In this document: positions 23,226-43,858 of the stretch, piece by piece
How the letters are laid out: every line of letters begins with the position of its first letter
Numbering within the stretch: the stretch's first letter is position 1
Assembly: GCA_022842165.1 (NCBI GenBank)
Contig: JALHQC010000001.1
Span: 124,001 to 188,000 of the forward strand
Source: a bacterium
GTDB taxonomy: Bacteria > Pseudomonadota > Alphaproteobacteria > Rhizobiales > Aestuariivirgaceae
DNA length: 64,000 bases
Direction of reading: 5' to 3'
The notes under the pieces: model-generated
What the model saw: the letters and a program-made list of their open reading frames with translations, nothing else
Databases searched by the model: none
What the model was told of the DNA's origin: nothing
Program-made: the position numbers and the translations under genes

Positions 23226-24455
23226 ATGACCCATGACATCCTGCTCGACCGCTATGCCCACCTCGCGGTGAAGACCGGCCTGAACATCCAGCCGGGCCAG
23301 CAACTCCTCATCACCGCGCCGCTCGATGCCGTGCCGCTGGTGCGGCGCATTACCGAACATGCCTATAGATCAGGCGCCAGCCTCGTCACCACCATCTATG
23401 CCGATGACGTGACGACGCTCGCCCGCTACGCCCATGCGCCGGACGAGGCCTTCGACGTGGCGCCGGCGTGGCTGTTCAATGGCATGGCGGAGGCCTTCAA
23501 GGATGGCGCCGCGCGGCTGGCGATTGCCGGCGAAGACCCCTCGCTGCTTTCAGGGCAAGACCCGAAAAAGCTGTCGCGCGCCAACAAGGCCCGCTCCATC
23601 GCCTATCGCCCAGCACTCGAACTCATCACCGGCTTCACCATCAACTGGTGTGTCATCGCTGCTGCTACGCCCGCCTGGGCAAAGTCGGTGTTTCCCGGTC
23701 TGCCGGCCGAGCAGGCCTTGAACAAGCTGTGGGACGCGATCTTCGCCTGCACACGTGCCAACCTCGATGATCCCGTCGCCGCATGGGAAGACCATTCCGC
23801 CAACCTCGCGCGGCGGACAGCCTTTCTCAACGAGCGGCGTTACCGCGCCCTGAAGTACACCGGCCCCGGCACCGACCTGATGCTGGGCCTAGCGGAAGAT
23901 CATTACTGGAAGGGCGGTGCGGGCCGTGCGCGGAATGGCGTCATCTGCAACGCCAACATCCCCACGGAAGAAGTCTTTACCGCGCCCCACAAGGACATGG
24001 TGGATGGCATCGTGCAATCGTCCAAGCCTCTCTCCTACCAGGGCTCGCTGATCGATGGCATCAAGGTTCGCTTCGAGCGCGGAAAGATCGTCGAAATGAC
24101 GGCGGAGAAGGGCGAAGATGCCTTCCGCAGCCTGATCTCGACGGACGAAGGTGCGGCACGGCTCGGCGAAGTGGCCCTCGTGCCGCATTCCTCGCCCATC
24201 TCGAAAAGCGGCATCATCTTCAACAACACGTTGTTCGACGAGAACGCGGCAAGCCACGTGGCGGTCGGCCAGTCCTACACCGAGAACATTCGCAACGGTT
24301 CGAAGCGCTCGAAGGAAGAACTGTCCGCATTGGGTGCCAACACCAGCCTCGTTCATGTCGACTGGATGATCGGCTCCGGCGAACTCGATGTCGATGGCAT
24401 CATGGCAGACGGCACCGCCGAACCCCTGATGCGCAAGGGCGAGTGGGCGATCTGA
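23226..24455 (+). CDS. M29-family metallo-aminopeptidase
   Basis: A 409-residue cytosolic protein of the thermophilic (M29) aminopeptidase family. Recognisable features are the N-terminal LDRYAHLAVKTGLNIQPGQQLLI and the metal-ligand region around NIPTEEVFTAPHKDMVDGIV (Glu ligand). EVALVPHSSPIS (His), FNNTLFDENAASHVAVGQSY (Asp, His, Tyr) and SLVHVDWMIGS (His, Asp) follow. Such enzymes remove N-terminal residues from peptides using two metal ions. ATG 23226 is chosen because of its position after CCTCC-poor spacing; an extension to 23190 is open but lacks support. Confidence 0.9.
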   Translation: MTHDILLDRYAHLAVKTGLNIQPGQQLLITAPLDAVPLVRRITEHAYRSGASLVTTIYADDVTTLARYAHAPDEAFDVAPAWLFNGMAEAFKDGAARLAIAGEDPSLLSGQDPKKLSRANKARSIAYRPALELITGFTINWCVIAAATPAWAKSVFPGLPAEQALNKLWDAIFACTRANLDDPVAAWEDHSANLARRTAFLNERRYRALKYTGPGTDLMLGLAEDHYWKGGAGRARNGVICNANIPTEEVFTAPHKDMVDGIVQSSKPLSYQGSLIDGIKVRFERGKIVEMTAEKGEDAFRSLISTDEGAARLGEVALVPHSSPISKSGIIFNNTLFDENAASHVAVGQSYTENIRNGSKRSKEELSALGANTSLVHVDWMIGSGELDVDGIMADGTAEPLMRKGEWAI

Positions 24456-24476
24456 CACCTGCCCCGGAGCAGCCGG

Positions 24477-24574
24477 ACCCTTCGAGGCTCGCGTACGCTC
24501 GCATCTCAGCGTGAGGATTACCCAAGTTCCCTCATGCTGAGGTGCCCACGGCAACGCCGTGGGCCTCGAAGCAT
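24477..24574. repeat. Dispersed palindromic repeat, intergenic copy
   Basis: About 98 bases with ends CCCTTCGAGG... and ...GGCCTCGAAGCAT, that is, inverted termini. On the minus strand it reads TGCTTCGAGGCCC, a variable hairpin, GGGCACCTCAGCATGAGGG, a variable spacer, then CCTCACGCTGAGATGCGAGCG and GCGAGCCTCGAAGGGT. The same order of blocks occurs at 42726-42820 inside ileS. It lies just past the M29 gene stop and beside the decayed xseA tail. Confidence 0.8.
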
Positions 24575-24582
24575 ATAATTCC

Positions 24583-40283: not shown

Positions 40284-40802
40284 CTACTGGCGCGGGAATC
40301 CGGCTTTTCCGCGGCGCTCGTGACCGGCACCGTCAAACAGCGATTCATACAGCAGCAGCCCGACTCCAGCAACGATTGCTACATCGGCGATGTTGAAGAC
40401 ATACCAACTAAAATTTCCGTAATGAAAGTGGAAGAAATCCGCCACCGCACCGCGCAATCCGCGGTCCAGCGCATTGGCCAGCGCACCGCCGATCACAAGT
40501 GCGAGAGCTGCCGCCCCGAGCGCCCTCTCCATCCGGCAGGCCCAGATCCACAGCATCGCCGTGATGACCAGGCTCAGCGCGATCAGCAGTTCCTGGGTGT
40601 GCGTGGTCAGGAGGCCGTAGGACACGCCACGGTTCCACACCATGACGAGTTCGAAGAACGGCGTCACCGTCACCGGCGACTTCGCGGCGATGTCGAAAAC
40701 GCTGATCATCCACCACTTGTGGGTCTGGTCCAGCCCGAAGACGAGGGCCGCCAGCGCCAGCACCAGAGGCGCCAGCGGGCTCCAGAGTTTCAGCCCCTTC
40801 AT
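40284..40802 (-). CDS. lspA: Lipoprotein signal peptidase
   Basis: A 172-residue membrane protein with four helices. The two catalytic aspartates are in the conserved C-terminal block: [21 protein letters not shown] and [15 protein letters not shown]. It cleaves prolipoproteins after lipidation of the Cys. ATG at 40802 overlaps the TGA of ileS (ATGA), the widespread ileS-lspA coupling. The longer frame upstream is inside ileS and is not used. Confidence 0.95.
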
Positions 40803-43800
40803 ACGGCCGTGCCGAAGCGCGTCTGCCATTCGCGCACGGCTTCGGCATCGCGGGGTGTGATGTCGGGGAACTCGGCATCGCTGCCGACTTGAGGGCTGAT
40901 TTTCCACGAGCGGGCGCATTTCCGGCCCTCCGCCGGCTTGAAGAGCACGGCCACGCCCTTCACGCTGTCGAGCCGGAAGGCGTCCGCCGGCCCCCCGCCT
41001 TCGATCAGCTTCGCGTCCGAGGTGATCGAGATTTCAGCCAAGTCCACGCCATCGAGTGCTGCAAGCAGTCCCGCATCCGAGACATAGACATCGGGTGCCG
41101 CTTCCAGCGCCGAGCCGATCGTCTTCTTCACCTGCCGCTCGATTTCGAGAGCGCCGGTGATGACGGAGCGCACGTCGCGCACCTTGTCCCACTTCGCGGC
41201 CAATTCCGGTGCCGCCCATTCATCCGGGCATTTCGCCATCTGCATCAGGTGAACGGACGAGCCATCGCCGCTGAAGCGCGACAGCCACACTTCCTCCATG
41301 GTGAAGGCCAGCACCGGCGCCCACCAGGTGGTGAGGCAATGGAACAGCTGGTCCAGCACGGTGCGGCAGGACCGCCGCCGCAAGCTCGACCAGGCATCGC
41401 AATAGAGCGAGTCCTTGCGGATATCGAAATAGAAGGCCGAGAGATCGACCGTCATGAAGTTGGTCAGCAGCGCGAACAGCTTCTTGTAGTCGAACACCTC
41501 GTAAGCCGCCCGCACCTGGCCTTCCAGTTCATGGAGGCGATGCAGGATGTAGCGGTCGAGTTCGGGCATGTCCTTCGCCTGGACGAATTCCCAGTCGTTC
41601 AGCTCATCAACAGCGCCGAGGATGTAGCGCATGGTGTTGCGGAGCTTGCGATAGCCTTCGATGTTGGTCTTCAGAACCTCCGGACCAAGCCGAAGATCTT
41701 CCGCGTAATCGGCGGAAGCGACCCACAGGCGGAGAATGTCCGCGCCCGATTGCTTGATCACGTCCTGCGGCGTCACGATGTTTCCCAAGGACTTCGACAT
41801 CTTGCGGCCGTCCTCAGCCACGACGAAACCATGCGTCAGCACCGCGTCATAAGGTGCGCGGCCGCGCGTGCCGCAGGCTTCGAGAAGGGAGGAGTGAAAC
41901 CAGCCGCGATGCTGGTCGGAGCCTTCCAGATAGAGGTCAGCTGGCCACTTGAGGTCGGGCCGCTGCTCGAGGCAGAAGGCATGGGTGGAGCCTGAATCGA
42001 ACCAGACGTCCAGGATGTCCCGCACCTGTTCCCACTGCTGCGAATTGTAATCGGCTCCCAAGAACCGCTGCGCCGCGCCTTCGGCGAACCAGGCATCCGC
42101 ACCTTCCTCAGAAAATGAATCCACAATGCGCTGGTTCACATTGTTATCATTGAGGATTTCGCCAGTTTCCTTGTTCACGAAAACGGCGATCGGCACCCCC
42201 CAGGCGCGCTGGCGCGAGATCACCCAGTCGGGCCGGTCGGCGATCATGGCACGCAGGCGGTTCTGGCCCGCCGCGGGGAAGAACTTCGTGTCGTCGATGG
42301 CTTTCAGCGCAATGTCGCGAAGCCCATGGCTCGACATCGAGATGAACCATTGCGGCGTGTTGCGGAAGATGATCGGCTTCTTCGAGCGCCAGGAATGCGG
42401 ATACTGGTGCTTCAGGCGGCCACGCGCGATCAGCGCATTGGCATCCGTCAGTGCACGGATCACCGCGTCATTGGCATCGCCCTTCTCGCCCTTGTCGGTG
42501 ATGACGCGGCGGCCCTCAAAGCCCGGCGCTTCCTTGGTGAAATAGCCATCGGCGTTGACGGTGAAGGGGATCGGCCCGTTCACCTTCTCGATCCAGATGT
42601 TGTAGTCATCCGCGCCATGACCAGGTGCCGTGTGCACGAAGCCCGTGCCGGTATCATCCGTTACATGATCGCCGTCGAGGAGGGGCACGTCGAAACCATA
42701 GCCGCCTGCTCCTTCGCCAGCAGCATGCTTCGAGGCCCGGCTGCCGCCGGGCACCTCAGCATGAGGGTTTTCCCCCGCTCCCTCACCCTGAGGCGCGAGC
42801 GCAGCGAGCCTCGAAGGGTTCCATGCGGCGAGCGGATGATCGCAAGCCATGCCTTCGAGTTCGGAGGCCTCGATCTTTCGAACTGTGCTCCAGCCCGTCA
42901 CCTTCGCGGCCTTCATTACGCCTTCGATCAGGCGGTCTGCGAGGATCAGCTTGTCGCCGGCCTTTGCCCAATTATTCTCGGGCGCCTCCGTCACAAGCAC
43001 GAGGCTATAGTCGATCTTGCGGGAATAGGAGATGGCGCGGTTGCCAGGGATGGTCCACGGTGTCGTGGTCCAGATGACGACGGACGCATCATCGAGTTGC
43101 GCGCTACCTCCGAGCCCTGCTTCTCTGATGCTGCTGATTGCCGTGTCCAGCGCCTTCACGCCGGTCAAGTCCAGCCGCTTCACCGGAAACTTCACATAGA
43201 TCGTATCCGACTGATAATCCTGATACTCGATCTCCGCTTCGGCCAGCGCGGTCTTTTCCACCACGCTCCACATCACCGGCTTCGAGCCGCGATAGAGCTG
43301 GCCCGAACTTGCGAATTTCAGCAGCTCGTTGGCGATCAGCGCTTCGGCGCGGTAGTTCATGGTGAGGTAGGGATTGTCCCAGTCGCCCGTCACACCCAGC
43401 CGCTTGAATTCCTCGCGCTGCACGTCGATCCAGTGGGCGGCGAAGGTCCGGCATTCCTTACGGAAGTCGTTGATCGGCACTTCGTCCTTGTTCTTGCCCT
43501 TCTCGCGGTATTGCTCTTCGATCTTCCATTCGATGGGCAGGCCATGGCAATCCCAGCCCGGCACGTAGTTCGAATCAAACCCCTGCATCTGGCGCGAGCG
43601 GGTGACGATATCCTTCAGGATCTTGTTCAGCGCATGCCCGATGTGCAGGTGCCCGTTGGCATAGGGGGGGCCATCGTGCAGCACGTATTTGGGCCGGCCC
43701 CTGCTCTGCTCGCGCAGTTTCTTGTAAAGGTCCATTTCCGCCCAGCGCTTCAGCAGTTCGGGCTCCTTCTGCGGCAGGCCCGCTTTCATGCCGAATTGGG

Positions 43801-43858
43801 TCTTCGGCAGGAATACGGTGTCCCGGTAGCGGTCGGTCTTCTGCGGCTTGTCGTCCAT
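40799..43858 (-). CDS. ileS: Isoleucine--tRNA ligase with an in-frame palindromic repeat
   Basis: A 1019-residue class I synthetase. It has [19 protein letters not shown] (HIGH), the editing CP1 domain ([31 protein letters not shown]), [12 protein letters not shown] (KMSKS) and a long C-terminus. It is longer than typical IleS (about 940-970). Residues about 347-378 ([20 protein letters not shown]...SRASKHAAG) replace the short loop expected between DHPLAA and [14 protein letters not shown], and their DNA is the dispersed repeat also seen at 24477-24574. The frame and all catalytic motifs are intact. It is coupled to lspA by an ATGA overlap. Confidence 0.95.
42726..42820. repeat. Dispersed palindromic repeat inside ileS
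   Basis: About 95 bases beginning TGCTTCGAGGCCC and ending GCGAGCCTCGAAGGGTT (inverted termini). In between are a GGCTGCCGCC hairpin, GGGCACCTCAGCATGAGGG, a spacer, and CCTCACCCTGAGGCGCGAGCG. Each block matches the intergenic copy at 24477-24574 read on its minus strand; the hairpin loop and spacer differ. On the ileS strand it is open in frame and adds about 32-40 residues within the editing domain. Confidence 0.8.

Follow-up and report, generated by a model that had tools for sequence, protein, structure and literature searches.

REPINs and BIMEs consist of small palindromic units that fall into subtypes and are joined as inverted doublets. REPs of the GTAG and CGTC superfamilies also occur inside genes in several bacteria—in tRNA synthetases of X. 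oryzae, E. litoralis, and S. alaskensis and, as different REPs near one recB site, in two Xanthomonas—and REP inserts have been speculated to change protein activity (main-text passages of PMC3733652). Rickettsia palindromic elements (RPEs) of about 100–150 bp are found within genes, in frame and at solvent-exposed positions; one of them, RPE-7 (144 nt), sits inside the isoleucyl-tRNA synthetase of R. japonica, with each rickettsial orthologue carrying an insertion at the same locus, and hotspots of RPE insertion are described as “not negligible” (passages of PMC3767692). Bru-RS of Brucella, a palindromic dispersed element of about 100 bp, is marked as intergenic (passages of PMC2267715).

In the window (the whole stretch of 64,000 nucleotides analyzed here), the editing domain of ileS contains a dispersed palindromic repeat that is read in frame, as an earlier note on this DNA had claimed. 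The repeat is REP-like in the broad sense: it has a short palindromic unit (half-units of 38–46 nt) and many dispersed copies, and it lies mostly outside genes (12 of the 13 other places were examined, with frames tested by Pfam). The family resembles the GTAG/CGTC REPs, as portrayed in those passages of PMC3733652, in its short palindromic units, often inverted dimers and in part intragenic, but its units end in GAGG/CCTC rather than in the end tetranucleotide of that superfamily, and no RAYT gene was found in the source genome (G000). With REPINs and BIMEs the family shares the inverted doublet and the subtypes (GCA- and GGG-type half-units are joined in 9 of 12 pairs), but it differs in its low copy number and, again, in the RAYT gene that was looked for and not found; nor was the target-site duplication of MITEs found at 11 elements. 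As with RPEs, the palindrome is in frame in a gene whose frame is kept, a likeness drawn from descriptions of elements from another order. Whereas the passages on RPE-7 describe an insertion at one locus in every rickettsial orthologue, the repeats of Hyphomicrobiales ileS are patchy in presence and of differing kinds. Bru-RS, likewise compared by its description, comes from the same order and is of similar size, but is listed as intergenic.

Coding palindromes are a known kind, and the earlier note's view that they are known mainly from Rickettsia was too narrow, given the intragenic REPs of several other bacteria in the passages of PMC3733652. What may be new is that a GAGG-ended family occurs in ileS, that two IleS loops are used repeatedly, and that the repeat kinds are mixed. 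Hyphomicrobiales ileS was not found among the intragenic REPs in the main-text passages of PMC3733652, no literature on repeats in Hyphomicrobiales ileS was found by title or start of abstract among the papers listed (open papers, without supplements), and a text search for the repeat's letters returned only papers unrelated by title.

The ileS insert and its repeat family

The 1019 codons of ileS are free of stops, insert included (Table 1), and no second IleS was found in the source genome, where the other matches listed (C19) are paralogues of 25–28% identity; the single open ileS rules out a pseudogene reading. The closest IleS, that of the MAG KLAP69 (L061), shares 89.1% identity over 964 aligned residues and is without residues 347–383. 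These 37 extra residues (111 nt; edges uncertain by a few residues) fall within the 32–40 that the earlier note had proposed, and they comprise 95 nt of repeat and 16 nt of other sequence that completes the frame. The blocks and termini that the note had seen shared with an intergenic repeat were recovered where it had placed them, with limits now set at 42725–42819 and 24476–24575. On the ileS strand, the RNA of the doublet is predicted to fold at −63.7 kcal/mol (z −5.6, with 0 of 200 shuffles as good), and positions 42000–43500 gave no Rfam match at E ≤ 1.

Table 1. Coordinates (positions in the window) of ileS, its insert and loops, and the intergenic copy of the repeat.
Feature	Position	Strand	Remarks
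ileS, isoleucyl-tRNA synthetase	40799..43858	-	1019 aa open frame; Pfam tRNA-synt_1 2e-140; PDB isoleucyl-tRNA ligases
Extra stretch relative to KLAP69, site A loop, CP1 editing domain	42710..42820	-	Pairwise alignment; the loop is short in most of the loci read
Core repeat doublet in ileS	42725..42819	.	95 nt; two inverted half-units, short spacer
GCA-type half-unit (ATGC-TTCGAGG ... CCTCA-GCA-TGAGG)	42724..42766	+	Model R1, 57.4 bits; G000:C1:166724-166766
GGG-type half-unit (ACCC-TTCGAGG ... CCTCA-GGG-TGAGG)	42781..42820	-	Model R1, 55.9 bits; G000:C1:166781-166820
Site B loop, residues 508-513, after NTPQWFIS	42320..42337	-	No insertion in G000
Intergenic copy, first half-unit	24476..24516	+	Model R1, 49.3 bits
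Intergenic copy, second half-unit	24530..24575	-	Model R1, 49.9 bits

With the element and its flanks (42721–42824) as query, BLASTN gave 37 matches in the source genome at E ≤ 1; the best non-self match (5.6e-21), with 82% identity over 95 positions to another copy, rules out a chance resemblance to a repeat. Covariance model R1 (E ≤ 0.01) detected at least 26 half-units at 14 places (12 pairs and two singles), among which the ileS half-units rank third and fifth by score; the further copies for which the earlier note had proposed a search therefore exist. Because 150 candidates were scored per genome out of several thousand (150 of 6639 in the source genome), all R1 counts given here are lower bounds and zeros are no proof of absence. 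Beyond the nine GCA + GGG pairs, one pair is GGG + GGG and two have a degenerate half. The intergenic copy in the window sits behind a 421-aa ORF ending at 24455, and its + strand folds at −56.1 (z −7.0). At the 12 places examined (C7:9-80 was left out), 11 frames of ≥90 aa span elements, and none of the 10 tested gave a Pfam match over the cut-off; as far as these frames tell, no copy but the one in ileS was found within a credible gene.

Half-units are 38–46 nt long, and the 21 that were aligned end in GAGG (CCTC on the other strand), with AAGG in one of the 21. In their nine-pair stem, 98.9% of cells are paired, 19 cells are changed on both sides, and covariation is 0.275, each of these measures being reached by 0 of 500 shuffles; sliding the partner by 1–3 columns leaves only 33–50% of stem cells paired. 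Neither the number of stem pairs changed on both sides (2 vs. 2.2) nor that of further pair types (4 vs. 5.3) exceeded shuffles, and since the changes reduce to two subtypes (ATGC with GCAT, ACCC with GGGT), change events are few. No exact flank repeat of ≥5 bases was found at 11 elements of the source genome, the best being 3 and 4 bases in two of them. RAYT (Y1_Tnp) genes numbered zero in the source genome (99.3% complete) and in G005, G010, G024, G413, G414, and G415; G366 has one, interrupted by TGA. By eye, the flanks of L007 and L019 in the source genome hold other dispersed-looking repeats (GTCATCCCGGCG-like) near family copies.

Other genomes hold the family as well: at least 44, 24, and 8 half-units were detected in the congeners G005, G010, and G024, and, farther off, at least 59 in G366, 21 in Tianweitania populi, 14 in a Methylocystis MAG, and 12 in Jiella, with a single half-unit each (at least) in KLAP69 and G329. 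Among the 150 candidates scored in each, none was found in the eight congeners G001, G018, G019, G011, G002, G006, G229, and G327, nor in G091, G407, G397, and G073.

In an AlphaFold2 model of IleS (mean pLDDT 79.8; 36 sequences), the insert lies between strands 337–340 and 390–395, and residues 354–384 fall below pLDDT 50, as is to be expected of any insert that lacks homologues in the alignment. In the same model, site B lies between strand 501–507 and helix 510–523. The solved IleRS 8c9e has five residues between the aligned blocks that flank site A. The ~37 added residues are, as modelled, probably disordered, and they end ~20 residues ahead of a conserved segment that we take to hold the editing residues.

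The ~80 IleS residues ahead of the insert are 56% identical between the source genome and KLAP69 vs. 96% around KMSKS; the diverged segment corresponds to residues about 263–344 (window about 42827–43072). This segment is fast in other pairs too, though less extremely (KLAP69–G018, 69% vs. 90%). Given its divergence from KLAP69, it may have been exchanged by recombination, or it may simply be fast-evolving. A separate variable stretch, residues about 227–258 (window 43085–43180), is longer in the source genome than in near relatives; it is not repeat-like by eye, and the matches of many genomes break there.

In-frame repeats at two IleS loops in relatives

The insert is absent in 21 of 24 congeners and present in G009, with G016 and G022 lacking a match over the site; 18 congeners were read at the loop, and G004, G006, and G008 were judged by match coordinates (3–6 nt between two matches). 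In G009 (L239, G009:C321:20700-24300), the same loop is occupied, in the same orientation and frame, by a 125-nt doublet of the family (58.0 and 54.5 bits), and the frame is open through the insert; changes elsewhere in the assembled ileS break it into three frames and may be assembly errors (the bin is 66% complete). The GCA half-units of the two genomes are identical at 40 of 43 positions, and the doublets differ in spacer and length (125 vs. 95 nt). IleS identity between the two is about 76–84% in longer flanking segments, 70.2% over 47 aligned residues (ed1), and 42% over 38 aligned residues just before the G009 insert. One old insertion, a segment exchange, or parallel insertions may account for the two doublets. 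The note had proposed to see whether only this lineage has the added residues; most congeners are without them, but G009 shows that the insert is not confined to this species. Most congeners are without the insert and the genome has further copies, so the earlier reading is supported on both of the points that could have overturned it.

Site A and B loops vary in length even without repeats, and long site A loops also occur, beyond the congeners, in L064, L067, L129, and L134. Three of these are palindromic by comparison with 60 mononucleotide shuffles (Methylocystis L067, z −6.6; Tianweitania L129, z −8.6; Jiella L134, z −6.4), i.e., 3 of 80 in a locus set of named records chosen by IleS similarity and not by inserts; the 70-residue insert of a Bosea MAG (L064) is non-palindromic (z +0.6). 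The start of the Bosea insert resembles a nearby IleS segment (SYGVYRV) and is perhaps a partial duplication. An order-wide scan of 397 genomes, 374 of them with a match at 1e-30 (some distant), together with 18 fetched regions, added palindromic site A inserts in G073, G407, G091, G397, G076, and G366, bringing the order to at least 7 of 374 genomes with the source genome included; length surplus was computed for 25 of 150 rows, a sample outside which G009 fell. The added inserts have C/T-rich hairpins of the CTCCCC...GGGGAG type or, in G091, of the CCTCGGG...CCCGAGG type, and palindromic inserts overall span z −2.5 to −9.6. The Jiella and G366 inserts at site A may be one shared insertion. 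An exact R1 core motif occurs, among 128 ileS frames (L031–L158), in L031 (the source genome) and L144 (G366) only.

Two of these inserts are themselves multicopy. The Tianweitania insert, used as query, gave 21 matches in its own genome, two of them in ileS, and 26 in G073, one of them in the G073 ileS insert; the G407 insert gave 18 matches in G173 and, counting itself, 10 in its own genome. In Tianweitania populi (L129), both IleS loops hold copies of one repeat, 85% alike, a repeat taken up twice.

Site B, the loop after NTPQWFxxM, holds in-frame repeats in other lineages. In G366, the repeat there belongs to the window's own family (half-units of 46.2 and 40.2 bits); in-frame repeats were also found in G329, G173, G025, G308, and G221 and, within the 80-locus set, in L067, L077, L088, L089, L090, L102, L106, L108, L118, L119, L129, L130, and L134, with L108 and G025 appearing to be one genome. 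Site B extensions of G349, G385, G362, G407, and G397 were not counted as repeats, though one motif match occurs in L155 (G362). G329 has two ileS genes (L146 on C47 and L157 on C204), one with and one without a site B repeat, which may represent two organisms in one bin. As read from the genome sequences, there are at least three kinds of palindromic repeat in frame at the two loops of Hyphomicrobiales IleS.

The positions are concentrated. Motif hairpins lie inside ileS at 13 of the 80 loci, and of the 17 repeat-type hairpin clusters in ileS, 16 fall at residue 336 or 463–469 of a 976-residue reference, the 17th (residue 708 in the aligned sequence) being probably due to chance. If positions were uniform and independent, clustering at two loops would have p 1.6e-29, a value that is overstated because the lineages are related. 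CT-type clusters in the 80-locus set number 17 in 235 kb of ileS, 3 in 261 kb of other ORFs (≥200 aa), and 15 in 137 kb of the rest. A set of 76 unnamed loci (80 fetched from single-match rows, four duplicates dropped), which is biased against inserts and gives no rate, has one such cluster in ileS (outside the loops), three in other ORFs, and nine in the rest. This second set also has three R1-motif matches in other ORFs, of which, with names given by eye, one (L207) is a repeat doublet in a spurious-looking frame, one (L199) is ordinary coding sequence, and one (L209) lies in a RibF-like ORF but is not part of a full unit. The pooled comparison of ileS with other ORFs (18 vs. 6 clusters, p 0.0014) is descriptive only, because the inserts had been seen before the motif was defined, the ORFs are frames rather than gene calls, and the lineages are related. 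For generic hairpins (stems ≥11), ileS did not stand out, with 20 clusters (9.2 per 100 kb) against 35 (9.7 per 100 kb) in other ORFs.

Origin and persistence of the inserts

We consider it highly probable that these are tolerated insertions of REP-like doublets, filtered by two permissive IleS loops. A non-autonomous, REP-like palindromic doublet, dispersed at 14 or more places in the source genome, lies in ileS in a stop-free frame and adds ~37 residues between two beta strands of CP1. Repeats would insert widely and be mostly lost from genes, and insertions at the site A and site B loops would survive because loop length is variable there and the extra peptide remains outside the fold. Isoleucyl-tRNA synthetase is essential, and because a single ileS copy was found the insertion is presumably tolerated; we infer that the insert would be translated, that IleS would keep its activity with it, and likewise how the repeats would have moved. 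The permissive-loop filter is, we infer, the most likely cause of the pattern. This filter alone fails to explain the excess in ileS over neighboring ORFs (17 vs. 3); the neighboring ORFs may be without such loops. That excess, the repeated use of the same codons by three or more repeat kinds, and the agreement of the source genome and G009 at site A in family, orientation, and frame would also be expected if the loops were preferred DNA targets, their sequence or structure picked by a mobilising enzyme or a repair process. We regard such targeting as improbable, since the differing repeat kinds would need one common target, the 11 elements showed no convincing target duplication, and the loops vary in length even where repeats are lacking, as permissive loops do.

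How the insert came to this particular ileS is a related question. It is possible, although we lean against it, that the insert was inherited or arrived with its ileS segment—as an old insertion that most congeners have since lost, or by exchange between congeners—and not by a fresh jump. The G009 doublet, in the same loop, orientation, and frame and with near-identical GCA half-units (40 of 43), is consistent with such a history, as is the pre-insert stretch at 56% vs. 96% identity to the closest IleS; yet G009 and the source genome are only about 76–84% identical in the longer flanks, 70.2% in ed1, and 42% just before the insert, the spacers and lengths differ (125 vs. 95 nt), and the pre-insert stretch is fast elsewhere too (69% vs. 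90% for KLAP69–G018). We find it very improbable that the insert is kept for use, whether through an mRNA hairpin that slows ribosomes during CP1 folding or through a peptide that tunes editing or partner binding: the mRNA hairpins are strong (z −5.6 here, −2.5 to −9.6 across palindromic inserts), the recurrence is within one enzyme, and changed protein activity has been speculated for REP inserts (passages of PMC3733652), but presence among congeners is patchy, and both the sequence and the length of the inserts vary greatly. Chance resemblance to a repeat, produced by ordinary loop growth or by an assembly error, is hardly credible; the natural variability of the site A loop and the non-palindromic Bosea insert of 70 residues fit loop growth, but the 82% identity over 95 positions to another copy (5.6e-21), the closeness of both ileS half-units to consensus, and a frame open through the whole of ileS argue against it.

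Consequences for Hyphomicrobiales IleS

In relatives, the two loops are occupied by different repeats, so ileS would be an unusually tolerant landing place: palindromic inserts occur in about nine lineages in one loop and in about eleven genus-level groups (named records) in the other. It is doubtful, though conceivable, that Hyphomicrobiales IleS is a true order-wide sink, its two loops taking up and translating intergenic DNA beyond what the loops of other essential proteins do, via target preference or a useful hairpin or peptide; if this were true, new segments of an essential enzyme would arise from selfish DNA. For annotators and modellers, these IleS segments are to be read as repeat-derived additions. 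More broadly, the loci would represent dispersed repeats becoming protein outside Rickettsia, with natural replicates in an essential enzyme, and the old question of whether palindromes in coding sequence serve as raw material or are junk that is tolerated is now testable in cultured relatives.
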